Shown here: piece after piece, positions 1 through 64,000 of the stretch
Position numbering within the stretch: the first letter of the stretch is position 1
Layout of the letters: every line of letters starts with the position of its first letter
Assembly (NCBI GenBank): GCA_903873965.1
Contig: CAIQQO010000201.1
Coordinates: 18,957-82,956, forward strand
Direction of reading: 5' to 3'
Origin: an uncultured bacterium
Lineage (GTDB): Bacteria > Chloroflexota > Anaerolineae > J036 > Brachytrichaceae
Length of the DNA stretch: 64,000 nt
Notes under the pieces: model-generated
The model's database searches: none
What the model was told of the DNA's origin: nothing
Seen by the model: the letters and a program-made list of their open reading frames with translations, nothing else
Program-made: the position numbers and the translations under genes

Positions 1-1526
1 AGTTTGGTGAAGTTCTTGATCTTGGTTTCAGCCTCGGCCATGTATTCCACGCGGCCCGCTCCATAAATCTGCGTGGCGATGGTTTCGATCTTTTCCTTGA
101 TCGTGGCCTCATTGGTATACAGCATCTTGAACGACTTGGGCAACTCACAGGCAGCCGCCACGGCATCAGCCAGCTCGGCTCCACCTTCGCCGCCCAGCGC
201 CCACACCTTCGATGAGTAAGCGCCAACGGCGCCTGCTTCAATGGCCTGCTCGCGGACGAGTGCTGTCTCGGCAGGGGTGTCGGCGTCGAAGTGGTTAATC
301 GCCACGACGACCGGCACGCCAAACTTGCGCGCGTTCTGCACTTGCTTGGTCAAGTTGGCGCAACCCTTCAACAAAGCGGGTAGATTCTCACGCGTCAACT
401 CGGGTGGTAGCGGCTTGCCGGCAACGACGCTGCCTGCGCCGCCATGCATCTTCAGGGCGCGCACCGTGCACACCAGCACCACGCAATCGGGCGCGAGCCC
501 GCTGGCGCGACACTTGATGTCCATGAACTTTTCCATGCCCAGATCGGCGCCGAATCCACTCTCTGTGACGACGTAGTCAGCCAGCTTCAATGCGATTTGG
601 TCGGCCACGATCGAGTTGTTGCCGTGCGCGATGTTGGCAAACGGCCCGGCATGCACGAACACGGGCGACTGTTCCAACGTCTGCAGCAGGTTCGGCATGA
701 TGGCGTCTTTCAACAGGACTGTCATCGCGCCGGCAACGCGCAGTTGCTCAGCCGTGATGGGTGATCCGTCTTTCGCAAAGGCCACGACCATGCGGCCCAA
801 CCGAACGCGCAGGTCTTCGATGCCGTTCGAAAGTGCCAGAATGGCCATCACTTCAGAGGCGACCGTGATGTCATAGCCGGAAGTGCGCGCCACGCCGTCT
901 TCGCGTGTGCCGAGTCCCAGTGCAATCTTGCGCAAGGAGCGGTCGTTGATGTCGACGACGCGGTTGAGCATGATCGAGTAGGGATCGATGTTTAGAGGAT
1001 TGCCGTGATAAAGGCAATTGTCGACTGCTGCGGCCAACAGGTTGTGTGCTGCGCCGATGGCGTGAATGTCGCCGGTGAGGTGCAGGTTAAAGTCTTCCAT
1101 CGGAATCACCTGCGCATAACCGCCGCCGGCTGCACCACCCTTAATGCCAAAGGTCGGCCCCATACTCGGCTGGCGCAGGCAGGTGAACACGTTTCGACCG
1201 GTGTAGTGCAATGCCTGTGACAGACCGATGGTTGTCACGGTTTTGCCCTCGCCCAGCGGCGTTGGGGTGATTGCTGTCACCACGATATATTTTCCGTTGG
1301 GGCGGCCAGCCAGCCGCTCGCGCACATTCAAGTGCACTTTGGCTTTATGCTTGCCGTAAATCTCAAGATCGTCTTCGGCCAGCCCGGCATGTTTTGCCAC
1401 ATCAAGGATCGGCAGAATCGGCGCGGCTTGCGCGATTTCCAAGTCCTTGGGTACTGGGGTCAACTTGACAGGACCGTTGTACTGAGTGCTTCGGTTCGAT
1501 TGTTTACGGTTGTTTTGGTTTGGCAT
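1..1526 (-). CDS. fhs: Formate--tetrahydrofolate ligase (3' end beyond window start)
   Basis: Reverse-strand translation from ATG at 1526: MPNQNNRKQSNRSTQYNGPVKLTPVPKDLEIAQAAPILPILDVAKHAG...TPTPLGEGKTVTTIGLSQAL...RQPSMGPTFGIKGGAAGGGYAQVIPMEDFNLHLTGDIHAI, classic Fhs motifs. Not in ORF track because no stop lies in the window. Confidence 0.95.
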   Translation of the reverse strand, partial: MPNQNNRKQSNRSTQYNGPVKLTPVPKDLEIAQAAPILPILDVAKHAGLAEDDLEIYGKHKAKVHLNVRERLAGRPNGKYIVVTAITPTPLGEGKTVTTIGLSQALHYTGRNVFTCLRQPSMGPTFGIKGGAAGGGYAQVIPMEDFNLHLTGDIHAIGAAHNLLAAAVDNCLYHGNPLNIDPYSIMLNRVVDINDRSLRKIALGLGTREDGVARTSGYDITVASEVMAILALSNGIEDLRVRLGRMVVAFAKDGSPITAEQLRVAGAMTVLLKDAIMPNLLQTLEQSPVFVHAGPFANIAHGNNSIVADQIALKLADYVVTESGFGADLGMEKFMDIKCRASGLAPDCVVLVCTVRALKMHGGAGSVVAGKPLPPELTRENLPALLKGCANLTKQVQNARKFGVPVVVAINHFDADTPAETALVREQAIEAGAVGAYSSKVWALGGEGGAELADAVAAACELPKSFKMLYTNEATIKEKIETIATQIYGAGRVEYMAEAETKIKNFTK

Positions 1527-1735
1527 CCTGAATCTCCTAAATGGCTTTCCATCCCAGTGGGATGGCATTCACGTCGGGGTGAACTCGTGTATTCACCCGT
1601 TCTCTTGACTCACTAATCTCCTGTATGGCATTCATGTAGGGCGAACCCGTTCTTTTGAATCACCAATTATCGGACCTAAATGCGAGGCAGTTTCCTTTCC
1701 ATCTTGCTTTGGCTTCTTGCCTGGTCTATCTCGTT

Positions 1736-4495
1736 TCATGCCTCAAGTGTCTGTTCTCTGGCTTCTTCCTTATCAATCCGCACCGTCAAAACCTTATACT
1801 CCGGGCAGCGTGTGAGTAAGTCTGAAGATGAAGACAGGATCGAGTTCATATCCGTCTCCGGAAAGTGGAAAGTCGTAAACACGTTGCCTGGATTGACGCG
1901 TTCGCTGATGTGCGCCGTCATCGGAATACTGCCGCGTCGGCTGACCAACTTCACCCTTTGCCCGTCGCTGATGTGGTAGGTCACTGCATCATCGGGGTGA
2001 ATCTCCAGCGCATCGTGATCGACAACCTGCCCCAGCGGCGTGCGGCGAGTCATCGTGCCGGCGTTGTAATGCTGCAGTACTCTGCCTGTCACGAGAACGA
2101 GCGGGTACTGGTAATCAGGTTCTTCACCTGGCGGCAGGTATTCCACCGCGGCGAATTTTGCCCGACCTCGGGGGAATTTTTCGGTGTGCAGAATCGTGGT
2201 GCCGGGATGTTGTGCGGAGGGCACAGGCCACTGCAATTCCTGTTTCTCAAGGCGCTCATAACTGATGCCGGCCAGCGGTGGCGTCAATGCTGATATCTCA
2301 TCCATGATCTCAGAGGCGTCGCGGTACGACATCGGCACACCCATCGCGGTTGCAATGGCGCAGATGGCCTCCCAGTCCGATCGGGCGTTGCCGGGTGGCG
2401 GCACCACCTGCCGGACGCGCTGTACGCGCCGTTCACCATTCGTGAAAGTGCCGTCTTTTTCAAGTGCGCCGGCTGCCGGAAGAACGACATCCGCGAGCCG
2501 CGCCGTTTCACTCATGAAGAGCTCGGAAACGACGACGAAGTCGAGTGCCCGCATGGCATCGCGCACCAGCCGTGTATTAGGTTCGGTCTGTGCGGCGTCG
2601 TAGCCCATGATCCACATCGCCTTCATCTTGCCGGCCAGTGCCGCATCCCACATATCTGGGATTTTCAAGCCGGTGCTCTGTGGCAGCGGTCGTCCCCAGC
2701 GTGTTTCAAATTTGGTGCGCACAACCGGATCGCTGTATTTCTGATACGAGGTGAGGACGTTGGGCAACGCGCCCATGTCGCACGAGCCTTGCACGTTGTT
2801 TTGTCCTCTCAGCGGATTCACGCCCGTGCCGGGTCGTCCGATGTTGCCGGTCAGGATGGCGAGGTTGGCCAGCGCCATAACGCCATTGGAACCAGTGCGA
2901 TGCTCCGTCATGCCGAGGCCGTGGAACGCCATCGAGGCGCCGCTATTGGCATACAACCGTGCTGCCTTGCGCAGCAATTCAGCCGGCACGCCCGATATCT
3001 CTTCAACGCGCTCCGGCGTGTAGGTGGCGACGGTTTCATAGAAGGCATCGAAGTTCTCGGTGCGGTTCTCGACGAAATCGCTGTCCACCAGTTCTTCCGT
3101 GATGATGACATTGGCCAGCCCGTTAAACACCGCCACATTGGTGCCCGGTCGCAGGCGCAGATGTACGTCGGCGTAATGGGTCAGTTCGATGTTGCGCGGG
3201 TCGATGACAATCAGCTTGGTGCCATTGCGAACGGCGCGCTTGATTCTCGCCCCGGTCACTGGGTGTCCTTCCGTGGGGTTACAGCCACTCACCAGGAAGA
3301 GGTTGGCCTTCTCAATATCCTCAAGCGAATTGGTTGCGGCGCCGGTGCCGATCACTTCCTGCATACCGGCTACGGTGGGGCTATGGCATACGCGCGCGCA
3401 GTTGTCGATGTTGTTCGTACCCAGGCATGCCCGCGCGAATTTCTGCATCAGGAAATTTTCTTCATTCGTGCCGCGGCTCGACGAAATGCAACCCACGCTA
3501 TCTGCGCCATGCGTCGCCACGGCGTCGCCGAAGCGTTGCGCAATCAGCGCCATGGCTTCTTCCCACGTTGCTTCGCGCCATTCTTGTGCAGGTTGGGATG
3601 CGCCCGTCTCAGCGCCCCTCACGCGGATCAATGGCTGCGTCAGGCGGTCGCTGGCGTTAATGTAGCCGAAAGCATAACGGCCTTTGACGCACGCGTGCCC
3701 GGCGTTCACTGCCGAGTCGTCCACCGGGATCATGCGAATAATCCTGTTATCGGCGACTTCGGCATCAAACTGGCAACCGGTGCCGCAGTACGCGCAGGTC
3801 GTGCGCGTCTTGTGCGTGGCGGTGACCGCAACTCGGTCAACGGGAATGATGTCGCTGAGTGCGTCGGTGGGGCACTCGTGTACGCAGGCTCCGCACGTCA
3901 CGCAGGCTGAGTTGTCGAAATGGCCTGCGCCGGGCACGATACTGCTATGAAAACCGCGACCGTTCAGGTGCAGCACGTTCTGACCCTGAATCTGATCGCA
4001 GGTGCGCACGCAACGCGAACACAAAATGCACTTGGCGGCGTCAAAGGTAAAAAAGGGGCTGCCCGTATCGACTGCGGCGGTGCGATGCTCGTGCCTCTCA
4101 CCGCTAAACCGCTCCGGGTTGGCGCCATAGCGCTGCGCCAGTGCGTGGACTTCGCCGCGTCCGTTGCCCCCGCCGCGGGTGTATTCGCGTGAGCCTTCAG
4201 ACAGGTAAAGCTCCAACAAAGTGCGTCGGATGCGCTGAATGTCGGGTGTGTCAGTGGTCACCACCATGCCATCGCGGATAGGGGTGGTGCACGCAGCTGA
4301 AAGCGCTTTTTGCCCCTGCACTTGCACGACACACAAACGGCATGAGCCATAAGCTTTCAGGTGATCGGAATAACACACCGAAGCAATGGGCAGACCTGCG
4401 TGCCGCGCGGCTTCCATGACGGGTGTGCCGGCCTTCACCTGCATGACGTGTCCGTCAATGGTGACGGTTACATGTTCAGTTGTCTCATTTGGCAT
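1736..4495 (-). CDS. fdhA: Formate dehydrogenase alpha subunit (NuoG-like N-terminus plus molybdopterin domain; FdsA/FdhA type, Cys variant)
   Basis: [2Fe-2S] and CxxCxxC ferredoxin motifs (CILCSRCVRTC, CVTCGACVHECP), CAYCGTGCQF, and CARVCHSPTV active-site region. Confidence 0.93.
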   Translation of the reverse strand: MPNETTEHVTVTIDGHVMQVKAGTPVMEAARHAGLPIASVCYSDHLKAYGSCRLCVVQVQGQKALSAACTTPIRDGMVVTTDTPDIQRIRRTLLELYLSEGSREYTRGGGNGRGEVHALAQRYGANPERFSGERHEHRTAAVDTGSPFFTFDAAKCILCSRCVRTCDQIQGQNVLHLNGRGFHSSIVPGAGHFDNSACVTCGACVHECPTDALSDIIPVDRVAVTATHKTRTTCAYCGTGCQFDAEVADNRIIRMIPVDDSAVNAGHACVKGRYAFGYINASDRLTQPLIRVRGAETGASQPAQEWREATWEEAMALIAQRFGDAVATHGADSVGCISSSRGTNEENFLMQKFARACLGTNNIDNCARVCHSPTVAGMQEVIGTGAATNSLEDIEKANLFLVSGCNPTEGHPVTGARIKRAVRNGTKLIVIDPRNIELTHYADVHLRLRPGTNVAVFNGLANVIITEELVDSDFVENRTENFDAFYETVATYTPERVEEISGVPAELLRKAARLYANSGASMAFHGLGMTEHRTGSNGVMALANLAILTGNIGRPGTGVNPLRGQNNVQGSCDMGALPNVLTSYQKYSDPVVRTKFETRWGRPLPQSTGLKIPDMWDAALAGKMKAMWIMGYDAAQTEPNTRLVRDAMRALDFVVVSELFMSETARLADVVLPAAGALEKDGTFTNGERRVQRVRQVVPPPGNARSDWEAICAIATAMGVPMSYRDASEIMDEISALTPPLAGISYERLEKQELQWPVPSAQHPGTTILHTEKFPRGRAKFAAVEYLPPGEEPDYQYPLVLVTGRVLQHYNAGTMTRRTPLGQVVDHDALEIHPDDAVTYHISDGQRVKLVSRRGSIPMTAHISERVNPGNVFTTFHFPETDMNSILSSSSDLLTRCPEYKVLTVRIDKEEAREQTLEA

Positions 4496-6032
4496 CGTTT
4501 ACCTCACTAAACCACATAGGGAACCGCTGAATGGCCGACAACACGGGTGTCGGCGCCATCATGCCCAGTGCACACAGGCTGCTCCCGCGCATCGCAAATG
4601 CAATATCGTCGATCAATTGCACGTCATCCGGCTGCGTTTCACCTCGGCGCATCGCATCCAGAATCTCTGCGGCGCGTTGCGATCCAAGCCTGCACGGGGC
4701 GCACTTGCCACAACTTTCATGCGCTACATAGGCCATCAACCGATGTGCCAGTTGCAGCGGATTGGTGCGTTCGTCGTAGACGACCACACCGCCATGTCCC
4801 AGCATACTGCCTGCCGCGCTGAATGCGTCGAAGTCGATAGGCAGATCAAGACCGCTATCGGGCATAAGGTCGCCCAGCGGTCCGCCGACTTGCACTGCCA
4901 GCAACTGATGCCCTTCGGGTACGCCGCCGCCGTAAGTATTGATCACTTCACGCAGGGTAACGCCAAATGGCACTTCAACCAGTCCCGGCGTGCGTAAGCT
5001 CCCGGCGAGTTGCAGCGGTATCGTGCCGCGGCTGCGCCCGGCGCCAATCGACCCATACTGGTCGCCGCCATCGACGATGATCGAAGGAATGGTGGCCAGC
5101 GTGGTGACGTTGTTGATCACCGTGGGTTGGCCAAACAGCCCGCTGATTGCGGGGTAGGGCGGTTTGGGCCGCACCATGCCGCGCTTGCCTTCCAGGCTCT
5201 CCAGCAGCGCCGTTTCCTCGCCGCATACATAGGCGCCGGCGCCGCTGCGCACATCAACATCGAATGCGAATCCGCTGTCCAGAATAGAGGCGCCGAGGTA
5301 TCCGGCATCACGCGCGGATTGCACCGCTTGTTTCATCACGGCCTGCGCGCGTGGATATTCTGCTCGGATGTAGATATACCCCTGTTGCGCGCCAACAGCC
5401 CTGGCGCAGATCGTCATACCTTCCAGCAGGGCAAACGGGTCACCTTCCATCAACATGCGATCGGCGTAGGTGCCGGGGTCGCCTTCGTCGCCGTTGGCGA
5501 CAACGTATTTTTTAAGGCTGACAATGTCGGCCACCGTCTGCCACTTGATGCCGGTTGGAAATGCGGCGCCGCCGCGGCCACGTAATCCCGACCGCTTGAC
5601 CTGGTCGATGATGGCGGCAGGTCCAAGCTCTGACAGGGCGCGGCGTAATCCGGCATAACCACTTGCATTCTCATAGGCTTCAATAGAGCCGGTTTCGATG
5701 ACGCCACAGCGTTGGAACGTGATGCGTTGCTGACCCTTGAAGAAGGGATGCTCGGTCACTACGCCTATGGAAAATGGCGCAATTGCAGCGCCTTCAAGCA
5801 GCCCTTGTTCCAGCAAGGCTGCAACATCACTGGCGTTGACATTGGCATAGCCTACGCGTCCATGTGCAGTTGCCACTTCGATCAGGGGTTCAAGGAAAAA
5901 CGCGCCGCGACTGCCGGTGGTGACCACTCGGAAATCGCCTCTGCGCTCCTGTTCACTGCGTAAGGTATTTTCGACATCGCGCGCCCCAATGGAGCGGCTG
6001 GACATATCTGCGGAGATGTACACGTCAATCAT
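4485..6032 (-). CDS. NADH-binding NuoF-like formate dehydrogenase beta subunit (FdsB type)
   Basis: RGRGGAAFPTGIKW, GDEGDPGTYADR, YVCGEETALLESLEGKRGMVRPKPPYPA, ESCGKCAPCR. Start at MIDVYIS (6032) gives an ATGA-type overlap with the upstream gene; ORF track extends to 6086. Confidence 0.9.
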   Translation of the reverse strand: MIDVYISADMSSRSIGARDVENTLRSEQERRGDFRVVTTGSRGAFFLEPLIEVATAHGRVGYANVNASDVAALLEQGLLEGAAIAPFSIGVVTEHPFFKGQQRITFQRCGVIETGSIEAYENASGYAGLRRALSELGPAAIIDQVKRSGLRGRGGAAFPTGIKWQTVADIVSLKKYVVANGDEGDPGTYADRMLMEGDPFALLEGMTICARAVGAQQGYIYIRAEYPRAQAVMKQAVQSARDAGYLGASILDSGFAFDVDVRSGAGAYVCGEETALLESLEGKRGMVRPKPPYPAISGLFGQPTVINNVTTLATIPSIIVDGGDQYGSIGAGRSRGTIPLQLAGSLRTPGLVEVPFGVTLREVINTYGGGVPEGHQLLAVQVGGPLGDLMPDSGLDLPIDFDAFSAAGSMLGHGGVVVYDERTNPLQLAHRLMAYVAHESCGKCAPCRLGSQRAAEILDAMRRGETQPDDVQLIDDIAFAMRGSSLCALGMMAPTPVLSAIQRFPMWFSEVNDAK

Positions 6033-6559
6033 GCGTGTGATCCATCCCCGGGCGGATACACGGATCCGTCCTGACGAGAGTGCCATGCTGGAGATTCAGA
6101 AGCGCGTTCCAACTGTTGAACCACTGTATCTGGCCTGCATCGCCCAACCACCTGTTCATCGATGGCCATAGAAGGTGAAAGGGCGCAGTTGCCCAGACAG
6201 TAAACGTGTTCGTATGAGTATTTGCAATCAGGCGTGGTTTGATTAGGCGCGATACCCAGATGCGCTTCAACGGTTTCCGAAATGCGATCCGCACCCGTGG
6301 CCGCGCACGAATCGCCGTGGCAGACGCAGATGCGATGCTGCGCCGGCGGCGTAGTGCGTAACTCCGTATAGAAGGTGATGATGCTTTGTAACTCACCTTC
6401 TGGCACGCCCAGCGCCTTCGTGAGTGCATTCACCGCTTCGACGGCGATATATCCAGACTGGGCCTGGATTTCCTGTAGTGCGACGAGAGCCATCTCGGGA
6501 TGTCCCGCGTGGCGGGCAATAATCTCCGAAACTGGTCCTGCATGAACTTCCATGGTCAC
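6029..6559 (-). CDS. NuoE-like [2Fe-2S] formate dehydrogenase gamma subunit (FdsG type)
   Basis: Thioredoxin-like ferredoxin pattern: HPEMALVALQEIQAQSGYI, ICVCHGDSCAATGA, CLGNCALSPSMAID. Confidence 0.88.
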   Translation of the reverse strand: MTMEVHAGPVSEIIARHAGHPEMALVALQEIQAQSGYIAVEAVNALTKALGVPEGELQSIITFYTELRTTPPAQHRICVCHGDSCAATGADRISETVEAHLGIAPNQTTPDCKYSYEHVYCLGNCALSPSMAIDEQVVGRCRPDTVVQQLERASESPAWHSRQDGSVYPPGDGSHA

Positions 6560-6599
6560 CCGCGTTGCATAAGATATAGTGCTGATCTTTCATGAACCA

Positions 6600-6622
6600 C
6601 ACCGCCGCGTTTTGCGGCGGTG
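6600..6622 (-). other. Strong hairpin (9-bp GC-rich arms, 5-nt loop) between metVF-like and fdsG-like genes
   Basis: CACCGCCGC gtttt GCGGCGGTG; no U-tract on the minus strand. Confidence 0.7.
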
Positions 6623-6671
6623 CAATTAACGTGTTTTGCCGAATCTAATCCCTGATCCCTTGGTCCCTGGC

Positions 6672-8129
6672 TTACGCTACGGCGCGCACTTCTTCCGGTG
6701 CGCGTTTGAGACCAGCATCCGTGACGATTCTCGGGATGATGGATTCCCAACCCACGGTCATCAGATGGATACCGCTGGCTGCTTTCTTGGCGCGCACGTG
6801 CTCGATGATTTCGAGCGCGATCTTGATGCCTTCTTCTTCGGCGCCATCACCTGCCGCTTCCATGCGCTTGATGATACTGGCCGGCATAACGATCCCGGGA
6901 ACTTCCGCCAGTTTGTGCGCCATCTTCAGGCTCTTGATTGGCATGACGCCGATCAGGAGATAGGCTTTGTCGATGATATTGCGCTTGGCCAGTTCGTTGA
7001 ACCAGATTTCCAGCCGATCGGTGTCATAGACCACGTTCGTCTGAATAAACTGCGCGCCGGCGTTGATCTTCTTGTGTTCGCGAATGGCCTGGAAACGCGG
7101 CTCCGATGTCATGGGCGAACCTGCAGCGCCGAGGAAATACTTGGGCAGCTGCTTGATCTCGCGCCCGTCCAGGTATTTGCCTTCGTCGCGCAAGCGTCGC
7201 AGCATCCACAGAATCTGGATTGAATCGATATCGAGAATATCGAGGCGCGCCATGGGTTGCGCCCCTTCGCGCGGGCTGTCACCTGACAGGCACAGGATGT
7301 TGCGGATGCCCAGTGCGCTTGCACCCAGCACATCCGACTGCACGCTTAAGCGTGTGTGATCGCGCGCTGTCACTTGCATGACGGGTTCCGCGTGCTTTTG
7401 CAGTGCCAGCATGGCCGATGCCCAACTGGATACGCGCGGCATCGCCGAGGCGTTGTCGGTAAAGTTGACCGCAGTGACATAGTCGCGTACCGATTCCACG
7501 TTACCCAGGAACTTCGTCGTGTTCGGGCTCAGTGATGGCGCGACTTCGGCTGTGACGACGAATTCGCCGTTGCGTAGACGCCGTTCCAGTTCTGATGCGG
7601 GTTCGGTGTATTTGGGTGCGTGATACTCAGAATCGCCCGACCACCATACCGGCTGGCGCACAGGGCGGAAAATTGAATCCCATGTGCGGGCGCGTTCATT
7701 CACGTTGCGCGTTGCCAATCCTTTGACAACCTTGCGCACGCCGACCTTCTTTACTTGTCTGACAACGTCGCCCCAGGTTTCGGTGCCGACTTTGTCCCAG
7801 TCCAACGGAGGAAGCACTTCCAGCAGTTTTTCGCTGGTACCCATTTTCTCTGAGCGATCATAAATGGCGTACCAGATGCACGGGCGCTTATCGTCGACAC
7901 AACATATTTCGGTTGAGCCGCCGCATGGGCCATTGCGCACACCCTTTGGGCATTCCATGGGGCAGATGTAGGCGGTTTCTTGAAGCATGCAGTTGCCGCA
8001 CATGCGACAACCAAACAGCGGCCCCTTGATCATTTTCTCGGTCGAAGCAAGCAGCTTCTTCCCAAGTGACACTTTCTTAAAAGGATCGTATGGCGGTTGC
8101 CAACGGCGACCCGGCGTAAAAATGGGCAT
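6672..8129 (-). CDS. Fused MetV-like Cys-rich domain plus methylenetetrahydrofolate reductase (MetF)
   Basis: N-term: GCRMCGNCMLQETAYICPMECPKGVRNGPCGG...RPCIWYAIYDR (MTHFR_C/MetV-like). C-term: VTAEVAPSLSPNTTKFLGNVESVRDYVTAVNFTDNASAMPR...QVTARDHTRLSVQSDVLGASALGIRNILCLSGD (MetF TIM barrel). Confidence 0.9.
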   Translation of the reverse strand: MPIFTPGRRWQPPYDPFKKVSLGKKLLASTEKMIKGPLFGCRMCGNCMLQETAYICPMECPKGVRNGPCGGSTEICCVDDKRPCIWYAIYDRSEKMGTSEKLLEVLPPLDWDKVGTETWGDVVRQVKKVGVRKVVKGLATRNVNERARTWDSIFRPVRQPVWWSGDSEYHAPKYTEPASELERRLRNGEFVVTAEVAPSLSPNTTKFLGNVESVRDYVTAVNFTDNASAMPRVSSWASAMLALQKHAEPVMQVTARDHTRLSVQSDVLGASALGIRNILCLSGDSPREGAQPMARLDILDIDSIQILWMLRRLRDEGKYLDGREIKQLPKYFLGAAGSPMTSEPRFQAIREHKKINAGAQFIQTNVVYDTDRLEIWFNELAKRNIIDKAYLLIGVMPIKSLKMAHKLAEVPGIVMPASIIKRMEAAGDGAEEEGIKIALEIIEHVRAKKAASGIHLMTVGWESIIPRIVTDAGLKRAPEEVRAVA

Positions 8130-8198
8130 CTCTACAACCTCACAATGAACAGTTCACCAACACAATCACCGGCGGAATTCCACCGGTGATCTCGTTAA

Positions 8199-9092
8199 TC
8201 AGGCTTTTGCAGCAGCATCAGCCTGTGCGCTTGCTGCAAGTCTAGCACGATATGCCTTGATCCATCGCACCGAATACTCGTCATTACCCATCAGCAGGTC
8301 ACAGGCAAGCAAAGTGGTGCGGATTTCGGAAACCGTGGGATCGGTGATGGCGGCCGTCAACCCGCGCGCCACGGCCAACGCCAGATAAGTGACGTTGATG
8401 ATCTTGCGATCGGGCAAGCCAAAGCTGACGTTGCTGGCGCCTAGTGACAGGTTAACGCCCAGTTCCTGCCGGATCAACTGCATCGCATTCAACGTGATGC
8501 GCCCGGCGTTGGAATCGGCGCCGACTGTCAGCGCCAGAGAGTCGATGATGATGTCTTCCGCGGGAACACCGTAATATGCAGCGCGCTCAATGATCTTGCG
8601 CGCTACTGCCAGGCGTGCCTCGGGTGTCGGCGGAATGCCGCTCTCATCCGTCAAAACGCCCATCACGACAGCATGATACTTGGCTGCGAGTGGCAGCACT
8701 GTATCGAGATGCCTGTCTTCACCCGTGGTTGAGTTAATCAAGGCCTTGCCTTGATAGACTGATAGCGCTGCATCAAGGGCCTCGGGATTGGCGCTATCGA
8801 AACATAGCGGCACATCGACGGCTCCCATGATGGCTTTGGTCAATTCGCTGAGCAACTTGGGCTCATCAGCGCCGGGCACGCCGGCGTTCAGATCTAGTAC
8901 GGTGGCGCCTGCAGCTACCTGAATGCGCGCATCATCGATGGCGACACTGTAATTGCCTGCTGCAAGCGTCTCCATCAGCTTTTTGCGCCGGGTAGGATTG
9001 ATGCGTTCACCAATAATAACGAAGGGCTGGTCGGGGCCAATGATCACCTCTTGGGTGCTCGATGATAGTAGCGTTTCCATGCATTTCTCCAT
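8199..9092 (-). CDS. Methyltetrahydrofolate:corrinoid methyltransferase-like protein (AcsE/pterin-binding family)
   Basis: FVIIGERINPTRRKKL, GATVLDLNAGVPG, DVPLCFDSANPEALDAAL, LINSTTGE, SLGASNVSFGLPDR: pterin-binding methyltransferase signature. Confidence 0.88.
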   Translation of the reverse strand: MEKCMETLLSSSTQEVIIGPDQPFVIIGERINPTRRKKLMETLAAGNYSVAIDDARIQVAAGATVLDLNAGVPGADEPKLLSELTKAIMGAVDVPLCFDSANPEALDAALSVYQGKALINSTTGEDRHLDTVLPLAAKYHAVVMGVLTDESGIPPTPEARLAVARKIIERAAYYGVPAEDIIIDSLALTVGADSNAGRITLNAMQLIRQELGVNLSLGASNVSFGLPDRKIINVTYLALAVARGLTAAITDPTVSEIRTTLLACDLLMGNDEYSVRWIKAYRARLAASAQADAAAKA

Positions 9093-9230: not shown

Positions 9231-9845
9231 GTGCCACAGTTTGATATAACGCGTTATCAGGATCAGCTAAACCTGTTGCATACCCACATCTGCCCTCGGC
9301 AGGTGCTTGGCATGCGCATGGGCGAATTGGCCGGCGACTATTTAGGTCTCGACTTGCCGGTGTTACGGCAACAGCACGACAAGCGTTTGTTTGTTTTTGT
9401 TGAGACGGATGGCTGTTTTGTCGATGGTGTGATGGTGGCGACCGGCTGCTCGCTTGGTCATCGTACCATGCGGTTGGAAGATCAGGGGAAAACGGCTGCC
9501 ACGTTCGTGGATACTAGTCGGCATGACCAGTCTGGTCTGCGCATCTGGCCGCACCCTCTAGCGCGCCAGCGTGCAATGGATATGGCGCCTGGCGCGAGTA
9601 GCCGGTGGCATGCACAACTCGATGGCTATCAACACATGGCCAATGCCGACCTGCTTTGTACGCGCGTAGTGACACTGACTGTTTCGATGCAGGCCATCAT
9701 CAGTAAACCCGGCCTGCGTCAGGAATGCGCAGTCTGCGGCGAAGAGATTATGAATGAACGCGGCATTTTACGGGGAGATGTGATTCTGTGCCGCACGTGT
9801 GCCGGCGAGTCGCGCTACTATGAAGTGACAACGCCCAGTGACTAG
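9231..9845 (+). CDS. FmdE family protein (formylmethanofuran dehydrogenase subunit E-like) with C-terminal zinc finger
   Basis: LLHTHICPRQVLGMRMGELAGDYL (FmdE H/C motif) and CAVCGEEI...CRTCAG zinc finger; GTG start. Confidence 0.8.
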   Translation: MPQFDITRYQDQLNLLHTHICPRQVLGMRMGELAGDYLGLDLPVLRQQHDKRLFVFVETDGCFVDGVMVATGCSLGHRTMRLEDQGKTAATFVDTSRHDQSGLRIWPHPLARQRAMDMAPGASSRWHAQLDGYQHMANADLLCTRVVTLTVSMQAIISKPGLRQECAVCGEEIMNERGILRGDVILCRTCAGESRYYEVTTPSD

Positions 9846-11949: not shown

Positions 11950-13752
11950 TCACAGTGTTTTCAAGGCTCGCAGCAACGAAGGCCGGCGGCGATAGTCCTC
12001 TCTTATCCGCGCCAGGTACGCATCCCATGTGTGTCCTTGGCCGAGTACGCGATAGGCCTTCTTCACAAGTATCAGCCAAGCGGCGACCGTAGGATAGTTT
12101 GAACTGCTGACGGTGTCGATCAATGCTTGGGCATGTTGTTTGCCCACCTCGACCACCCAATCAGGGCGATGCTGCATCACGCCATCGGCGATGATACTAA
12201 CGACTTGCGTGTTGATTCTTCCACGAGCGCTGTTTGCGAAAGCAATTGCCGCATCCCATTCCTGCTCGTACAGTAATATCGCAGCATACTCACTGGACAG
12301 CCACCAACGTGCCGATTGCTCAAGGAGGTGTTTTCTTATCTCGTCCCAGTTCTTGTCTGCCAGTGCCTTGATCTCCTGAAAGAGCGGCAGTAACGGATTT
12401 TCATCGAACACCGCTATCAACGCTTGCAACGCCAAATCGTCCTGTTTGTGCGATTTAGCCAAGGGGGCTAGCCATCGCCCCAACTCGGCGCGGGATTGCG
12501 CCAACTGCAAGCCATTTCCTGCAATCATGATGGCTTCTGCTACCTGACCGATCGCATGCAACTGTTGCGCCAGCGCTAACGCCTCGCTTGCCAGTTTGAA
12601 ATGTTGCGTAGCATACTGCACCGCCTCGGTTCCGCGCCTCAACTCAATTAGTTTTTGTGTGTAACGGAGATGACGCCTGGCAGAAAGCGCAATGGCCAGA
12701 TATCGCTCGTTTTCGCCGCGTCGATTCAGCACATTTAGCTGTGCATCGTTGACGTCTTCCAGGCGATAGTTACTTGTCCCCCATGTGTTCTCCGGGATAG
12801 CGGCATGTTCTTTGATGATTTCATCGTCACCAGCCTCATCAGCATCGTTATTGCCGTGTTCGCTCTTGCGATCAATTGCGGTCCAGCCATATTCCAGCGC
12901 ATCACTCGTCGCAGGATAGCCGTGATAGTCATCCCCGATTGCAATTTGGAGGTTCTGTTTCTCAGCGCTGCTTAACTCGGTGCTGAGCACAGCCTCCGCA
13001 GTGGGTATGTCCAGCTGATTCGCAAAGTTGTCCAGCTCGCTCAGTTCAAAATCTGCGTAATTCTGACTCTTGCGAATCTCATCGATTACGGCGGTAGCGA
13101 TTGCCAGCGCATTCCTGGATTGGTCTGTGTTCAAGTAGTCGACTATGACTTGCCGTATTTCGTCAAGTTCCTGGATCAGTTCGCCGTCCTCCTCTTCGTA
13201 TTCCGGGTTGTAGTTCTCACATGCGTCACGGATGAGTGCGCGGATGTGTTGGCGATATGGGGCGTCGTCCACGGTCTTGTGCTGCGGTGTGTTTTTTACC
13301 TCACCTGTGGACTTTGCTGTGGTGCTCTTGCGCGCCAGATCGGCGACCCAGCGTTCGACCGCGTTGCGCACGTCATCGTTTTTCTGAATAAGCGCCGTCA
13401 GCAGTTCCACCATCTGGTCGCGATTCAGTCCGCTCAGCAGGTACTGTGGGGCAATTTGCGGCTCGAACGACGCAGGGTCATTCAAATAAGCCAGAAGCAG
13501 CGCGACGATGTGTTTGCAATAATCGCCATTTTCATAAGCGCATGTGCACGAGGCGTTGGAGACGCCGGCGTTGTCAAATTCCACGCGCAGTTGGTAATGT
13601 GGGGCGTAACTGCCACGGCACTTGGCATTGAGAGCATTCTCGCTGATGGCTGCTTCGTAAATGGCGCCTTTGCTGTAGTAGTCACGACCACGGGCGAGTG
13701 ATTCATTCGAAGCGCCTGCGCTAATCATGGCTTCGGTCAATTTTATGAGCAT
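11950..13752 (-). CDS. SWIM zinc finger domain protein
   Basis: CSCAYENGDYCKHIVALLLAYLNDP (CxCx8CxH). Start at MLIKLTEAMISAG (13752) preceded by GGAGG; ORF track start 13890. Confidence 0.82.
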   Translation of the reverse strand: MLIKLTEAMISAGASNESLARGRDYYSKGAIYEAAISENALNAKCRGSYAPHYQLRVEFDNAGVSNASCTCAYENGDYCKHIVALLLAYLNDPASFEPQIAPQYLLSGLNRDQMVELLTALIQKNDDVRNAVERWVADLARKSTTAKSTGEVKNTPQHKTVDDAPYRQHIRALIRDACENYNPEYEEEDGELIQELDEIRQVIVDYLNTDQSRNALAIATAVIDEIRKSQNYADFELSELDNFANQLDIPTAEAVLSTELSSAEKQNLQIAIGDDYHGYPATSDALEYGWTAIDRKSEHGNNDADEAGDDEIIKEHAAIPENTWGTSNYRLEDVNDAQLNVLNRRGENERYLAIALSARRHLRYTQKLIELRRGTEAVQYATQHFKLASEALALAQQLHAIGQVAEAIMIAGNGLQLAQSRAELGRWLAPLAKSHKQDDLALQALIAVFDENPLLPLFQEIKALADKNWDEIRKHLLEQSARWWLSSEYAAILLYEQEWDAAIAFANSARGRINTQVVSIIADGVMQHRPDWVVEVGKQHAQALIDTVSSSNYPTVAAWLILVKKAYRVLGQGHTWDAYLARIREDYRRRPSLLRALKTL

Positions 13753-13930
13753 ACGCCACCTCCTGAGTATGGTCAGTTGACTATACATCAGGTACGTCGC
13801 CTGCGCGGCTCCTCTCTTCCTCTCGCTAAAAACGCGGGTTTTTCCATTTGGTGTATTATCGAATTTGAATTGTAGATTCGCAAAAATCAATTAAAACAAG
13901 CGAGTAGATACCTACTCCAAGGTTCCACCT

Positions 13931-16900
13931 TTGCATACTTTCAAAGAGGTAACAACGACGCGCCTATCCGGGCTAACGGACCGTGTTGACACCCAATCCC
14001 AGCCGCTGATTGAACCGCCGACCAACCGGGCAGAGCCGACTGTCCCCACTCATCTGGCCGAGTTGGAATTACGCATCCTACGCGGTTGGGAACAAAGACG
14101 CGGCCAGGGTGCTGCCGAAGTACTGCCGGGAGATTTCGAACAACTCTCGTTCGAACGCCGGGGGCTTCTGTACACGCTCAAGTGCTGCCACAAGACCGAT
14201 GCTGATGCTCACGAAGGCGGCAGGGAAGGCGGTTGCCCTCTCTGTGATTCCGTCCAGCGCCAGCTGCACAACCTCACCGCCGTTCAGCTGCCCTCCGGCC
14301 GCAGCTGGGAAATCTGGGTCAATAAGAGAAGCTATGCTGCGTACCATATCCTGATCATGCCCTTGACTGGTCAGGGACAGCCTGAGCATCGCTGTTGCGG
14401 CCAGGAAGCCACCCGCGACGATATCCAGGATATGCTGGCGCTGAAGACACTTCTACCCCACTTCTGCCTGTTCTTCAACGCTCATGGCGCGGGTAACAGC
14501 CAGGAACATCAGCATTTCCAGGGCTTTTACGCGGATACCGGCGCTGTGCTGCAAGTGGAGAAACAGGCCACACAGGGTTTGTGGCAGCACGGGCGTTTTT
14601 GGATGACGCAGGTGGAAGATTGGCCGGCAGAGTGCATCAGGATGCGGGGCCGGCACGATGTGCTGGCCGCGTACGCGGCCCAGGCTATTCAACTCGCTAG
14701 ACAAAAAAACCTGTCTTACAACTTGTTGTTCACAGGCAACGCGCTGTACTTTGCCAGGAGAAAGCAACTCGGATCAACCCACCTGGATAAGACCGCAGCC
14801 GGCGCGCTGGATGTGTTTGATCTGAAGCACATTGTCTCGCCGTCTGCGTTTGAGTGGGCGAAAACACACCCCCTGCAACTGCCAGACGAACTTGATTCGC
14901 TGTATGCGGATATCACCTGCAGCCGTGTCGAGACGCAGGCCTTCATGCGGGAGTGGATACAACTGGTCGGCGACGCACCGATATCCCATCTGGCTACGAA
15001 TGCTGCCGTTCAGTCGCAGGAGGCGACCGTACTGGACATACTGGTTGACTGTGCGGCAGGAGAACCGGCGTTGCGTGTGGCGGGCAGAGCGAAACTGGCG
15101 GCGTTTCTGAAAGATGAACTCTCCAATCGTAAGGAGCTGGCTGAAGCGCCATCAGCCTGTGGCACACCCGGCCATAAATGGTCGCGATTTTCCCGCTGGG
15201 CGGAGTCACGCCTACGGCCGGCAGAAGAAAGAATCAAAGACTCTGAAGAGGTTAACAAGGGGCTGGGCGTCGTGGATGCCCTGGTTGAAGCCTCGCGTTG
15301 CCTGCTGTGCCGGGAACCATTCTGCACCAAGGGCTGCCCGGTCATGATGGATATCAAGGGTGTGGTGAAGGCCTTTGTGAACGGCGACATCCAACAGGCT
15401 TATGCCATTATCAGAAAAGATAACATCCTACCGGCAATTACGAGCCGGGTTTGTCCACAGGAGACACAATGCCAGGCAACCTGCGCGCTGGCCAAAAGAG
15501 GCGATGCGTTATCGATTGGTCAACTGGAAAGGGCGGTGGTGGACCTGCACGACTTATTCTGCGCCTGCCGAGTGATCGATGCAGCGGAGATTGAGGACCA
15601 CGTTGACATCGTCATGCCTGAAAAAGACTATCCCATTGCGGTCATCGGTGCCGGCCCGGCTGGTCTTACGGTTGCATCCGAGCTGGCGCGCTGGTACACC
15701 CGCGTGGTCATCTTTGAAGCGTTGCCCGAACCGGGCGGCGGTGTGTTGAAGTATGGGATTCCCGGCTTCCGCTTGCCAAAAGACATCGTGCAAGCCGAGA
15801 TTGATTGGGTCAAAAGCCGCGGCGTTAAACTCATCTTCGATGTGGCCGTCGGTCGCACCCTGACCATCGCGGACTTGCGCCAGATGGGCTTTCGCGCGAT
15901 TGTGCTCGGCACAGGCGCCGGGTTGCCGAAGTTCATGGGCATACCCGGCGAGGAACTGAATGGCGTCGTTACCGCCAACGAGTTTCTCATGCGCTACAAC
16001 CTGATGTCAGCCGGGCAGCCCGAGTATGACACACCTCTCAAGGTGGGCAGGAAAGTGGTTATTATCGGTGGCGGCAATGTGGCCATGGATTCAGCGCGCA
16101 GCGCCATGCGCACCGGCGCACAAGAGGTCATTGTCATGTACCGTCGGGCGGAGGTAGATATGCCGGTGCGCGCTGAGGAACTGGATCGCGCCAGGGAAGA
16201 GGGCATCATCGTCATGCCACTGACAGCACTGCTGGAGTTCCTGGGCGTCGATGGCGCGCTCACGGGCGCACGCTGCCAAAAGATGGCCCTGGGCAAGCCG
16301 GATGAATCGGGGCGCCGCTCTCCTCAGCCGATTCAGGGTAGTGAATTCATCGTCGACGGCGTCAGCAGCGTCATTCTGGCCATTGGCACCGAGCCCAACA
16401 CCATGCTCATGGACCAGGAAAGATTGCCCAAGGGCAAGTGGAATACCGTCGCTCTTCAGGATGCTCAAACCGGCCAGACCCGGCAGCCGGACATTTTCGC
16501 CGCCGGTGACATTGCCGGCGGGTCGACGGTGATCGACGCGATGGGCACCGCCCGCAAAGCCGTCGTGGGAGTGCACACCTATCTGCAGTCTCTGCCCGAA
16601 GATGCGCGCCGGATTCGCACCGACCGGCGCGTGCTGCAGGCCGATGGTTACGCGATCACGCATCGAGAGGAACTGGCCAGTAATATCGTCCTGTTGAAAG
16701 TGTCAGCGCCGTTTGTGGCGGCGGCTGCGCGCGCCGGTCAGTTTGTCATGGTCATGAGTGATGCCCGTTCGGAACGAATTCCCCTCACCATTGCCGATTG
16801 GGATGCGGACAGTGGTGAAATCACTATAGTCATCCAGGCGGTCGGCTTGTCGACCATCAAGCTGTGTCGACGCCAGGTGGGCGAGCGCCTCTTCAGTGTG

Positions 16901-17482
16901 GCCGGCGCGTTGGGGCAACCCACCCATGTCGTGCATGACCCACAAAAAGACATCGTTGTCTGCGTTGCCGGCGGGGTCGGTATCGCACCGCTCTATCCGA
17001 TTGCCCGCGCCAACGTGCAGGCCGGAAACCGCGTGGTATCCATCATCGGCGTGAAATCACTCGACATGCTGTTTTGGGAAGACAGGATGCGGGCCATGTC
17101 AACCGCATTCACGCTGACGCTGGATTCGCAAGGACAGCTTGTGACCGATGGACTGGGAGCGTATCTGGAGGAGCAGCAGAGCAATGGCGGCATCCACCGG
17201 ATCGCGCGCGTCGTCGCCATAGGATCGGCTGGCATGATGCAGGCCGTGAGTAAATTGACCGCCCGTTACGGCATTCCTACGGTGGTCAGCCTGAATTCGA
17301 TCATGCTATGCGGGATCGGCATGTGCGGCTGTGATCGCGAGAACGTCAACGGTCAGCGGGTGTTTACCTGTGTGCATGGGCCTGAATTCGAGAGCCAGTC
17401 GGTTGACTGGCATGGCGTGTTTGCGCGACAGAAGCGCTATCTCCAGGAAGAGGCGCTCGCGCGCGCAGCCTCGAAGGGATAG
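13931..17482 (+). CDS. Three-module protein: GalT/HIT-superfamily domain, NfnB/GltD-like flavoprotein, NfnA-like ferredoxin:NADP reductase
   Basis: GCPLCDS plus NSQEHQHFQGFY (HxHxQ) at N-term; RPAEERIKDSEEVNKGLGVVDALVEASRCLLCREPFCTKGCPV, VIGAGPAGL, IGGGNVAMDSARSA; then AGQFVMVM...CVAGGVGIAPLYPIARA...MLCGIGMCGCDRE (FNR/2Fe-2S). Single uninterrupted frame; start TTG at 13931 uncertain. Confidence 0.88.
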   Translation: MHTFKEVTTTRLSGLTDRVDTQSQPLIEPPTNRAEPTVPTHLAELELRILRGWEQRRGQGAAEVLPGDFEQLSFERRGLLYTLKCCHKTDADAHEGGREGGCPLCDSVQRQLHNLTAVQLPSGRSWEIWVNKRSYAAYHILIMPLTGQGQPEHRCCGQEATRDDIQDMLALKTLLPHFCLFFNAHGAGNSQEHQHFQGFYADTGAVLQVEKQATQGLWQHGRFWMTQVEDWPAECIRMRGRHDVLAAYAAQAIQLARQKNLSYNLLFTGNALYFARRKQLGSTHLDKTAAGALDVFDLKHIVSPSAFEWAKTHPLQLPDELDSLYADITCSRVETQAFMREWIQLVGDAPISHLATNAAVQSQEATVLDILVDCAAGEPALRVAGRAKLAAFLKDELSNRKELAEAPSACGTPGHKWSRFSRWAESRLRPAEERIKDSEEVNKGLGVVDALVEASRCLLCREPFCTKGCPVMMDIKGVVKAFVNGDIQQAYAIIRKDNILPAITSRVCPQETQCQATCALAKRGDALSIGQLERAVVDLHDLFCACRVIDAAEIEDHVDIVMPEKDYPIAVIGAGPAGLTVASELARWYTRVVIFEALPEPGGGVLKYGIPGFRLPKDIVQAEIDWVKSRGVKLIFDVAVGRTLTIADLRQMGFRAIVLGTGAGLPKFMGIPGEELNGVVTANEFLMRYNLMSAGQPEYDTPLKVGRKVVIIGGGNVAMDSARSAMRTGAQEVIVMYRRAEVDMPVRAEELDRAREEGIIVMPLTALLEFLGVDGALTGARCQKMALGKPDESGRRSPQPIQGSEFIVDGVSSVILAIGTEPNTMLMDQERLPKGKWNTVALQDAQTGQTRQPDIFAAGDIAGGSTVIDAMGTARKAVVGVHTYLQSLPEDARRIRTDRRVLQADGYAITHREELASNIVLLKVSAPFVAAAARAGQFVMVMSDARSERIPLTIADWDADSGEITIVIQAVGLSTIKLCRRQVGERLFSVAGALGQPTHVVHDPQKDIVVCVAGGVGIAPLYPIARANVQAGNRVVSIIGVKSLDMLFWEDRMRAMSTAFTLTLDSQGQLVTDGLGAYLEEQQSNGGIHRIARVVAIGSAGMMQAVSKLTARYGIPTVVSLNSIMLCGIGMCGCDRENVNGQRVFTCVHGPEFESQSVDWHGVFARQKRYLQEEALARAASKG

Positions 17483-17498: not shown

Positions 17499-17528
17499 AA
17501 AGCTCCGGGTTTTAACCCGGAGCTTTTT
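17499..17528 (+). terminator. Rho-independent terminator
   Basis: AAGCTCCGGGTTTTAACCCGGAGCTTTTTTT just after the stop of the 1183-aa ORF. Confidence 0.9.
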
Positions 17529-19649
17529 TTACGCCAGCAACCGGACCAGAATAGGGTAGTCCTTGATCAATACACCGCGGATGTGTGCGCTGCCATGGAC
17601 GAACTCCATGTCTAGCTCCTGTTCCACGCCGTTGAGCGGGTCGTAGGCGATGGCCTGACGGCAGGGACCCGGCACAACCAGATCCGCCGGCACGCCGTTG
17701 CAGGTATCGGCTGCCCGACCCGGCTGCCACAATGCCACTACGCGTTCGCCCGGCCGTTCCAGCGCGAATTGCTCCAACTCGGCCGGACCTCCCTCTACCT
17801 GGAAGTCAAACACAGCCGGCTGGAGGTTCTCGAGGGCTGTGGCAAGATTTCGCAGCACGTAATAGGCCGCTTGCGGCTGCTGTGGTGAGATCGGATCGGC
17901 CGTGAAGGTGCGCCGCATCAAAGTCAGGTCCATGGCATAGTAGCTGTTGCCCCAGGTTTCGCAGAAAAAAGAGCCACAGGCCAGGGCTGTATGCTGCACC
18001 GAAAGACGCGCCACGTATTTCGCCTTCACCATTTCCGTGCAGACATAATCGCCCCACCAGTTGGGCGGGGTCGGTTCGGGATAGCTGGCGCCGTAACTCC
18101 ACTCCGAGGCGCAGAACTCACCGCGGAATCCCTGTGAAAGACACCAATTCTGGAAGCGGCGCACATCCGCTGTGTAACTGCGCACCGTGGGTTTGTCCGG
18201 ATCTGTCTGGTAAAACGGATGCCAGCCGATGATATCCACATCTGGTGCCAGTGCGCGAATGGCCGCCAGAAGCAGCGAGTCGCGCTCCTGTTGGATCAGC
18301 TCCTCCGGCGACCAGGTGCTCATGCCTGGGAAATACCCGGCAAAAGATCCCAACATGACTTTTGCCTGCGGACATTCCCGGCGCAGGATCGGGATCGTGA
18401 CTCGCGCGATTGCCAGGTATTGTTCGAGACTTGGCTGAGCGCCCCAGTACACGCCGATGTTCCACTCGTTCCAGATCTCGAATACTTTGATGCGGTCGCG
18501 GTACTTTCGAGCCATGAAGCGCACATAGCGGGCCCAGGCCTTGAGCGCGGCAGGTGTAACCGGCGGTTGGGGGTTCTCGTAATACCATTCCCACAACTGG
18601 GGAAGTTTGCGGGCCGGATCAGGGTTGGAGTAGAGCCGATTGCCAAATCCCAGCGCTAATATGATGTCGACGCCGTGATCCACCATGTAGTCGATGGCAG
18701 CGTCGGCTTCCGCATCCACAGCCAGCTTGCCCTTTTCCTTTTCCACCCAGTGCCAGTTTACCGGGTCGTCGTGGTAGCCGATGCGGATCCATTTGATTCC
18801 CAGGTCGGTGGCTAATGGCCACAACCAATGGTGTTCTTCCCGAGTTTGTCCCAGGGAATGCTGGGTGGAACTGACGGTAACGCCCGCTCCGCGGGTTGCC
18901 AGAGCCACGTTGCGTCCGGCAGTATCCAGCACCTCGATTTCAGCAATCGAAAAAGAATACAGCCAGTTTTCCACGCGCCGCAGTCCCCGCCCGATGACCC
19001 AGATCTGTTTGGCGGGCCTTGCAGCAAACTCGCAAATCAAATCACGTTTTTCGGGGGTATCACCGCTTGGCCCGTCGAACACGGTTTCCCATGTGCGCGC
19101 ATCCCGGCTGATGCGGATGGTGAGTTCCGCGGGCATAGCCATGCCGACCTCAACCGCGCCAGTATCCAACGGCATGCTGGACATGTCTGTGGACCGGGCT
19201 GCGCCGGGGACTCGCTTGCGCAGGATGATGCGGCACAGGTCGCGTTCAACTGGCAGGTCCAGCCGGATCCAAATCGGCTCGACGTCCGGCTGCGGTAGCG
19301 ATTTACTCGACCAACAGGTGGTCGGGTCACCGTCAATTAAGTGAATGCACTCCAGGGGCAGGTAATCGTTGGCCACTGTGCGCGGCATACGCGGAGAAGT
19401 GCCGCCCAAACGGTTGAAAACGACCTCTCCGCTTGATTTCACAGGCTGTTTGATGAAAGGTCGCAGATTCCCGACCTGAAGCCGTGTCTCGTCAGCCAGA
19501 TCGGGCGCTCCGGCCAGGATATGGGTGTATCCATAGGTTCGAATCGGCACGCCTTCGCACACGGCCCGAGTTGCGGGTTCGTCAAAAGGAGAAAGGCGGT
19601 TGGTTTGGCGCTGCCGGGTTGTCTTCTTAATCTGCATTGTAATCTCCAT
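17529..19649 (-). CDS. Glycoside hydrolase-like protein (F5/8C-like region plus TIM barrel, GH39-like)
   Basis: IRLDLPVERDLCRIILRKRVPG...; TIM-barrel motifs KWIRIGYHDDPVNWHWVEKEKG, IKVFEIWNEWNIGVYWG, DIIGWHPFYQTDPDKP. Confidence 0.7.
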   Translation of the reverse strand: MEITMQIKKTTRQRQTNRLSPFDEPATRAVCEGVPIRTYGYTHILAGAPDLADETRLQVGNLRPFIKQPVKSSGEVVFNRLGGTSPRMPRTVANDYLPLECIHLIDGDPTTCWSSKSLPQPDVEPIWIRLDLPVERDLCRIILRKRVPGAARSTDMSSMPLDTGAVEVGMAMPAELTIRISRDARTWETVFDGPSGDTPEKRDLICEFAARPAKQIWVIGRGLRRVENWLYSFSIAEIEVLDTAGRNVALATRGAGVTVSSTQHSLGQTREEHHWLWPLATDLGIKWIRIGYHDDPVNWHWVEKEKGKLAVDAEADAAIDYMVDHGVDIILALGFGNRLYSNPDPARKLPQLWEWYYENPQPPVTPAALKAWARYVRFMARKYRDRIKVFEIWNEWNIGVYWGAQPSLEQYLAIARVTIPILRRECPQAKVMLGSFAGYFPGMSTWSPEELIQQERDSLLLAAIRALAPDVDIIGWHPFYQTDPDKPTVRSYTADVRRFQNWCLSQGFRGEFCASEWSYGASYPEPTPPNWWGDYVCTEMVKAKYVARLSVQHTALACGSFFCETWGNSYYAMDLTLMRRTFTADPISPQQPQAAYYVLRNLATALENLQPAVFDFQVEGGPAELEQFALERPGERVVALWQPGRAADTCNGVPADLVVPGPCRQAIAYDPLNGVEQELDMEFVHGSAHIRGVLIKDYPILVRLLA

Positions 19650-60081: not shown

Positions 60082-60199
60082 ACAAACAATATAAGGAATT
60101 TCGCTAGTTTTGTCAAATGCGTGATTTTTACTCTTTGACCTATTGAAAAGCTTCGAGGACTATGATAAATATCTTACATACACCACAAGGAGAGATGCA

Positions 60200-63021: not shown

Positions 63022-64000
63022 ATGGATCAAAAAGAACTTCGCGATCTGGAAGCGAAATGCATTCAGGAATGCTCGCCGGCGTGCACCGCAGCGTGTCCCG
63101 TTCATGTCGATGTTAAGGCGATGCTGCTGGAGGCGGCGCGTGGCGACTTCACCGCGGCTTTAAAGCAGTACAAGAAGACGGTACCATTTCCAGGCATCCT
63201 CAGCCGAATTTGTGACCAGCCATGCCAGGATGTGTGCAAACGCACTGAAGCTGGCGACGCGATTGCCATCCGTGGGTTGGAGCGCGCCGCTGTCGAAATC
63301 GGTGAGTTATCTGTTGAGAAAGTGCGCCCTCTGCCAAAACGAAGCGGGCGCGTGGTCGTTCTCGGCGGCGGCGTCAGCGGCTTAACGGCGGCCTTTGATC
63401 TGGCTCGCAAAGGTTATGCAGTGACCATCATCGAGGCAGGCAGCAGGCTGGGTGGTAGTCTCTGGAAGGTGGATCGTGACTTTTTACCCGAAAAAGTCAT
63501 AGAAGATGACCTTAATACCATGCTCAAGCTGAGCGTGGTTGTCCGGTTGAACACGTCGATCAAGCAGGAACTGCATGATCTGCGAAATGAATTCGACGCT
63601 GTGTATGTTGCCATCGGCGCTCATACGCCTGAAAGATACGATCTAGACCTCGATGAATTTGGTTATATCAAAGTTGATGAAGTGACGTTTGCCACCAGTA
63701 TGGAAGGCGTATTTGCCGGTGGAGGGTTGCGCTGGGGCCCTGAAATGCACTCTTCGGTGACGTCCATCTCGGAGGGTAGGCGCGCTGCCATTTCTATCGA
63801 TCGCTATCTTCAAAAAGTGTCGCTGACAGCATCGCGCGCCAATGAAGGATCGTATCAGTCGTGCCTGTATACCACTATGCATGCGGTTGAACCGTGCCTG
63901 ATGATTGAACCGACTGATCAAGTGCAGGGCTACGAACGGATTGAAGCCATTCAGGAGGCCAAGCGCTGCGTGCAATGCGAGTGCATGGAGTGCGTCAAGA
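63022..64000 (+). CDS. GltD/YgfK-like FAD- and Fe-S-containing oxidoreductase, partial (continues past window end)
   Basis: MDQKELRDLEAKCIQECSPACTAACPVHVDVKAMLLEAARGDFTAALKQYKKTVPFPGILSRICDQPCQDVCKR...VVVLGGGVSGLTAAFDLARKGYAVTIIEAGSRLGGSL. Not in ORF track because no in-frame stop lies in the window. Confidence 0.9.
   Translation, partial: MDQKELRDLEAKCIQECSPACTAACPVHVDVKAMLLEAARGDFTAALKQYKKTVPFPGILSRICDQPCQDVCKRTEAGDAIAIRGLERAAVEIGELSVEKVRPLPKRSGRVVVLGGGVSGLTAAFDLARKGYAVTIIEAGSRLGGSLWKVDRDFLPEKVIEDDLNTMLKLSVVVRLNTSIKQELHDLRNEFDAVYVAIGAHTPERYDLDLDEFGYIKVDEVTFATSMEGVFAGGGLRWGPEMHSSVTSISEGRRAAISIDRYLQKVSLTASRANEGSYQSCLYTTMHAVEPCLMIEPTDQVQGYERIEAIQEAKRCVQCECMECVK

Follow-up and report, generated by a model that had tools for sequence, protein, structure and literature searches.

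A GalT/Apa-branch domain joined to NfnB- and NfnA-like modules in one reading frame of an uncultured Anaerolineae bacterium

The fusion gene and its surroundings

Analysis of a 64,000-nucleotide stretch of genomic DNA (the window) revealed one unbroken 1183-codon frame, starting with TTG and encoding a 1183-amino-acid protein, in which an N-terminal domain of the GalT/Apa branch of the HIT superfamily, an NfnB-like module, and an NfnA-like module follow one another. The coordinates, length, and frame of this gene, and its division into three modules, were all as given in a preliminary description of the locus (Table 1). Judging from the orientation of both neighbours, the gene forms its own transcription unit. 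The SWIM-domain gene, which lies 40 bp upstream, showed 70% identity to its counterpart in one congener (G004), and a terminator-like hairpin with a T-run was read by eye after the stop codon, being absent from the list of the mechanical scan. Composition and codon usage of the fusion gene were host-like, and the codon-usage score stayed above zero in the fusion frame across residues 1–1140, including the linker. Wood-Ljungdahl genes a few kb away, arranged in a conserved cluster, were 73–87% identical to those of congeners. The source is a draft genome (75% complete, 497 contigs); misassembly of the fusion gene is nevertheless unlikely, because its neighbours are native to the genus and the coding signal is unbroken.

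Positions 3–9092 of the window (minus strand) hold the methyl-branch Wood-Ljungdahl cluster conserved in congeners, with genes for formate-THF ligase (formyl-THF ligase), a molybdopterin formate dehydrogenase, NuoF- and NuoE-like subunits, a fused MetV-MetF (DUF5981 plus MTHFR), and a pterin-binding AcsE-like protein. It had been proposed that the fusion might serve this formate dehydrogenase; we rejected that role as unsupported, as a distance of about 4.8 kb and a change of strand separate the cluster from the fusion gene, which congeners lack although they have the cluster. A fusion of an FmdE domain with a DksA/TraR zinc finger (9231–9845, plus strand) adjoins the formate dehydrogenase cluster. 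Towards the other end of the window, a single-chain molybdenum hydroxylase of 930 amino acids with 2Fe-2S and MoCo domains (60143–62935, plus strand) precedes a Fer4_20/Pyr_redox protein truncated at the end of the window (63022–64000, plus strand), and the two possibly form a molybdenum hydroxylase and NAD(P)H flavoprotein pair.

Table 1. Features of the fusion gene and its immediate neighbours (positions within the window)
Feature	Position	Strand	Basis or remark
SWIM-domain gene	11950–13890		divergent from the fusion gene
Whole fusion gene	13931–17482	+	1183-codon frame, three modules
GalT/Apa-branch (HIT superfamily) nucleotide phosphorylase/nucleotidyltransferase-like domain	14102–14860	+	residues ~58–310; HMM, Foldseek
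CPLC (C102, C105), candidate metal ligands	14234–14245	+	place of the CxxC in E. coli GalT and DUF4922 proteins
HQHFQ (H193, H195, Q197), HxHxQ catalytic motif	14507–14521	+	H195 is the expected nucleophile
YNLLF, Apa-type second-lobe motif (YN-L ... R)	14717–14731	+	residues 263–267; kept in alignments A4 and A5; aligned to Apa2 YNVLLTKKWICVVPR
Linker, mostly helical	14861–15217	+	residues ~311–429; model secondary structure, low confidence
NfnB-like module: two [4Fe-4S] motifs, FAD and NADPH sites	15218–16594	+	residues 430–888
NfnA-like module: FAD, NAD, [2Fe-2S]	16643–17464	+	residues 905–1178
Altered [2Fe-2S] ligand motif CGIGMCGCDR...C	17309–17371	+	residues 1127–1147; replaces DGTGMCGxCR...C
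Terminator-like hairpin GCTCCGGGTTTTAACCCGGAGC and T-run	17502–17530	+	after the stop codon; by-eye reading
Neighbour gene	17529–19649		convergent with the fusion gene

The N-terminal domain and its relatives

A profile built from 21 relatives, with the query left out, matched the N-terminal domain at residues 122–289 with 54.8 bits (E = 1.7e-15), whereas the best of 2000 shuffled copies of the query reached 7.0 bits. Selection accounts for a few of the 54.8 bits, since the relatives were picked by a motif shared with the query; this motif spans 12 residues and the aligned stretch about 170. Scores against the Pfam families DUF4922 (PF16269; 13.5 bits) and Ap4A_phos_N (PF19327; 12.1 bits) fell under the gathering cut-offs of 23.6 and 23.1, respectively. 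Foldseek searches with two moderately confident AlphaFold models (mean pLDDT 57 and 67) placed yeast Apa2 first for both models and throughout the top matches (E 3e-5, probability 1.0), and the family profile also found the Apa2 sequence (E = 1.5e-7) and aligned weakly to a further stretch of it at the YN-L...R second-lobe motif. Given the profile match, the fold and sequence matches to Apa2, and the invariant motif residues, the domain belongs, as judged from its sequence and predicted structure, to the GalT/Apa branch as a diverged member whose putative catalytic residues are in place. The branch and the GalT/Apa-like fold proposed in the preliminary description were thus upheld by HMM and structure match alike; the domain is nearer to Ap4A phosphorylase and DUF4922, although its scores for both are below the Pfam cut-offs, than to GalT itself.

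The CPLC motif (residues 102–105) and the HQHFQ motif (residues 193–197) lie exactly where they had been described. Alignment of the query with 47 relatives (48 sequences) revealed that N131, K132, H139, H193, H195, Q197, and the preceding GAG-S are invariant; for the HxHxQ residues this invariance is partly due to selection, because the search pattern contained part of the motif. CPLC aligned with CYLC in standalone DUF4922 relatives and had no CxxC counterpart in the aligned Thiobacillus-type relatives. The nucleotidylated residue of E. coli GalT is the second His of HPH, and the zinc ligands are C52, C55, H115, and H164 (PMC5081055); Apa/GalT chemistry runs via the HxHxQ histidine (PMC5081055, PMC7705103). 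By analogy, H195 is the candidate counterpart of the GalT nucleophile, and C102, C105, H139, and H193, which stand at places comparable to the GalT zinc ligands, are putative metal ligands at a site that some family members lack. The catalytic motif makes a dinucleotide or nucleotide-sugar a plausible substrate.

The closest sequence relatives among the matches listed, at about 25–30% identity, were DUF4922 and Thiobacillus-Sedimenticola-type proteins, all of them standalone (about 350–450 amino acids) and none joined to Nfn. The latter came from a search with the degenerate DNA pattern GAGxSxxHxHFQ, which may miss rarer fused relatives; among the matches listed, it gave a standalone family of about 350 amino acids in proteobacteria, Thiobacillus and Sedimenticola among them; most of these proteins lacked an above-threshold Pfam match. 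A GalT/Apa-branch family with the motif YNSxGAGASVNHLHFQ occurred at loci L119–L235 (e.g. L130:1829-2917, L147:437-1471, and L162:807-1943), and five of the six proteins tested had no Pfam family above threshold, making this an unnamed family. One genus within the class of the source bacterium has standalone DUF4922 proteins that aligned to the N-terminal domain via the GAG-S...H-x-H block and the CxxC that both have in common; two of these proteins (L036 and L038) exceeded the Pfam gathering score of 23.6. In this genus, a DUF4922 gene is found shortly downstream of one for a thioredoxin-reductase-like flavoprotein (L036:1213-2376 and L037:883-2289), which connects this domain type with an NAD(P)H flavoprotein for a second time, here by gene neighbourhood.

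Ap4A phosphorylase (Apa1/Apa2; PF19327 and PF09830), the best fold match, has the HxHxQ, NK...H, and YNxL...R second-lobe motifs in common with the domain, which differs in falling under the Pfam threshold, in its fusion to a flavoprotein, and in the CxxC ahead of the first lobe. No relatives of the domain were found by an exact 8-mer scan of genome contigs, by tblastn against plasmids, or by two hand-made motif alignments against viral contigs using mutated query copies with the motif columns kept. No recognised relative of the linker was found, and comparison with the N-terminus of PRK12779 gave no match except LRPAEERIKDSEEVNKG at the linker end.

The NfnB- and NfnA-like modules

Pfam and NCBIfam searches identified Fer4_20 and Pyr_redox_2 at residues 434–868 and a sulfide/dihydroorotate-dehydrogenase-like FAD/NAD module at residues 907–1178. 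The best matches among PDB sequences were T. maritima NfnB for the NfnB-like part (E = 3.5e-112) and P. furiosus NfnI beta for the NfnA-like part (E = 5e-60), which also scored 281 bits against NF004862, above its cut-off of 220. R614, in GFRLPK, aligned with IPEFRLPK of T. maritima NfnB and is presumably the arginine at N5 of the bifurcating FAD. The two [4Fe-4S] motifs of NfnB, like the Asp-containing [2Fe-2S] motif of NfnA (DGTGMCGxCRx10CV), have been described previously (PMC6405883). The first, RCx2Cx4Cx3CPV, is present as RC457LLC460REPFC465TKGC469PV, and the second, GRVCPQExQCx3C, as SRVC508PQETQC514QATC518, with Gly replaced by Ser.

The [2Fe-2S] motif of the NfnA-like part is altered. 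It took the D...C form in 32 of the 33 distinct motifs of the compared loci and the C...D form in the fusion only, and the DDGSxG loop common in NfnA is missing. A [2Fe-2S] cluster could possibly be held by C1127, C1132, and C1147 together with C1134 or D1135, although its potential, and perhaps the use of NADH, should differ from those of NfnA on the strength of these ligands. Because both the ligands and the loop are altered, the NADH arm may fail to function as it does in Nfn, and the Nfn label needs care for the same reason. The homology of both modules to NfnB and NfnA, as earlier suggested, was borne out by Pfam, NCBIfam, and PDB matches.

Comparison with NfnAB (T. maritima 4YLF, P. furiosus 5JCA) showed that both subunits are recognisable end to end in the fusion, with the NfnB Fe-S, FAD, and NADPH motifs and the N5 arginine in common. 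The fusion differs in being one chain in B–A order, in its added N-terminal domain, in CGIGMCGCDR for DGTGMCGxCR, and in the lack of the DDGSxG loop; in relatives of the same class, nfnA lies upstream of nfnB. PRK12779 (NF009415), which probably corresponds to the fused Nfn named 'pattern C' by Liang et al. 2019 (PMC6405883), is likewise a single chain with NfnB before NfnA; its alignment with the query covers query residues 428–1174, of which about 38% are identical. It retains the Asp ligand (DATGMCGAC) that the fusion lacks, and its N-terminus of about 170 amino acids is not GalT/Apa-like; an origin of this N-terminus as a GalT/Apa remnant was rejected, the two N-termini being unrelated. 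The fusion scored 567 bits against NF009415 over profile positions 211–937 only, under the cut-off of 1519 set for the whole protein. Three long actinobacterial frames considered as candidates for the same architecture were rejected as A–B fusions; one of these (L272; 982 amino acids) carries a rubrerythrin-like C-terminal domain, a feature of the PRK12775 type.

In a tree of 56 NfnB sequences, the fusion stood on a very long, deep branch (1.12 substitutions per site), forming a weak group with PRK12779-type fusions and a single actinobacterial sequence. This grouping (88%) involves long branches and possibly reflects long-branch attraction. The long branch is compatible with changed or relaxed function.

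Distribution and interpretation

Searches of 60 relatives, among them five congeners, of 298 and 396 genomes of the class with the N-terminal domain as query (overlapping samples), of 398 genomes of the phylum (a sample overlapping those of the class), of 298 Actinomycetota genomes with two candidates scored per genome, of 13 further genomes, and of plasmids revealed no further copy of the fusion. The congeners lack the gene, whereas several keep the SWIM gene and the formate dehydrogenase cluster; with its neighbours thus conserved, the fusion gene is a lineage-specific acquisition or survivor. None of the relatives sampled splits the frame into separate HIT and Nfn genes, which the preliminary description had considered as a sign against a fusion, because none of them has the gene. 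The fusion is a domain architecture unseen in the collections searched and built of known parts.

We favour, with a probability of roughly 55%, a real single-gene fusion in which a tether connects a competent-looking Apa/GalT enzyme with a single-chain NfnB-NfnA flavoprotein; the protein would probably be a nucleotide phosphorylase or nucleotidyltransferase tied to an NAD(P)H-linked Fe-S flavoprotein, and its enzymatic activity, substrate, coupling, and bifurcation are predicted properties. Against this reading stand the single draft genome, the altered NfnA ligands and loop, the long NfnB branch, and the moderate models of the N-terminal domain. In the predicted chemistry, H195 would take NMP from a dinucleoside polyphosphate or nucleotide-sugar, forming a nucleotidyl-His intermediate, and hand it to phosphate or another acceptor, and the NfnB-NfnA part would move electrons among NADPH, low-potential Fe-S or ferredoxin, and, with less certainty, NADH. 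The tether would most likely serve to tie stress- or sugar-nucleotide turnover to the NADPH/ferredoxin state, by regulation or local supply. GalT-related HxHxQ Ap4A phosphorylases occur in yeast and many protists, cyanobacteria also possess Ap4A phosphorylases, and oxidative stress raises Ap4A (PMC7705103, PMC10148737), which lends plausibility to a link of this kind.

The N-terminal domain might instead be a nucleotide-binding sensor of Ap4A, an NDP-sugar, or a pyridine nucleotide that alters Nfn activity and is not itself an enzyme. A regulatory domain fits fusion to a complete redox enzyme, and the long helical linker and the divergence of the domain below the threshold of all named phosphorylase families point the same way; yet the domain retains HxHxQ together with every invariant residue around it, which a pure sensor would not need, and we regard this reading as unlikely. 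Somewhat less probable is a diverging, partly decayed lineage-specific gene whose Nfn part no longer bifurcates, an accident kept for the N-terminal domain or for nothing. Occurrence in one genome, the long NfnB branch, the [2Fe-2S] ligand exchange, and the loop loss are consistent with decay, but a stop-free frame of 3.5 kb with host-like codon usage throughout and intact cofactor motifs of NfnB argue against it, as does the nature of the ligand change, in which D and C trade places (D to C, C to D) instead of being lost at random.

A chimeric assembly or a foreign contig in the bin appears highly improbable: 497 contigs and a join carried by no relative would suit it, but the genus-like SWIM gene immediately upstream and the nearby conserved Wood-Ljungdahl cluster argue for a native locus, and frame and codon usage continue through the join.

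A more speculative proposal, to which we give a lower chance than to decay, is a redox-gated nucleotide enzyme, in which the Nfn part with its exchanged ligands would report on or deliver NADPH/ferredoxin electrons and thereby control Ap4A or nucleotide-sugar phosphorolysis in cis. If true, this would constitute a direct enzymatic link between the turnover of dinucleotide alarmones or nucleotide-sugars and low-potential electron flow, which to our knowledge has been recognised for neither family. Nfn enzymes serve as models of electron bifurcation, and dinucleotides of the Ap4A type act as stress signals; no paper treating electron bifurcation and Ap4A together was found in the literature searched. 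The biology may be narrow, because the gene is known from one genome only; the joined protein offers a concrete, expressible test of coupling between Nfn and Ap4A-type dinucleotides. The Asp of the [2Fe-2S] motif is thought to set the unusual potential of that cluster, and the D-to-C and C-to-D exchange provides a natural variant of this residue in NfnA (PMC6405883).
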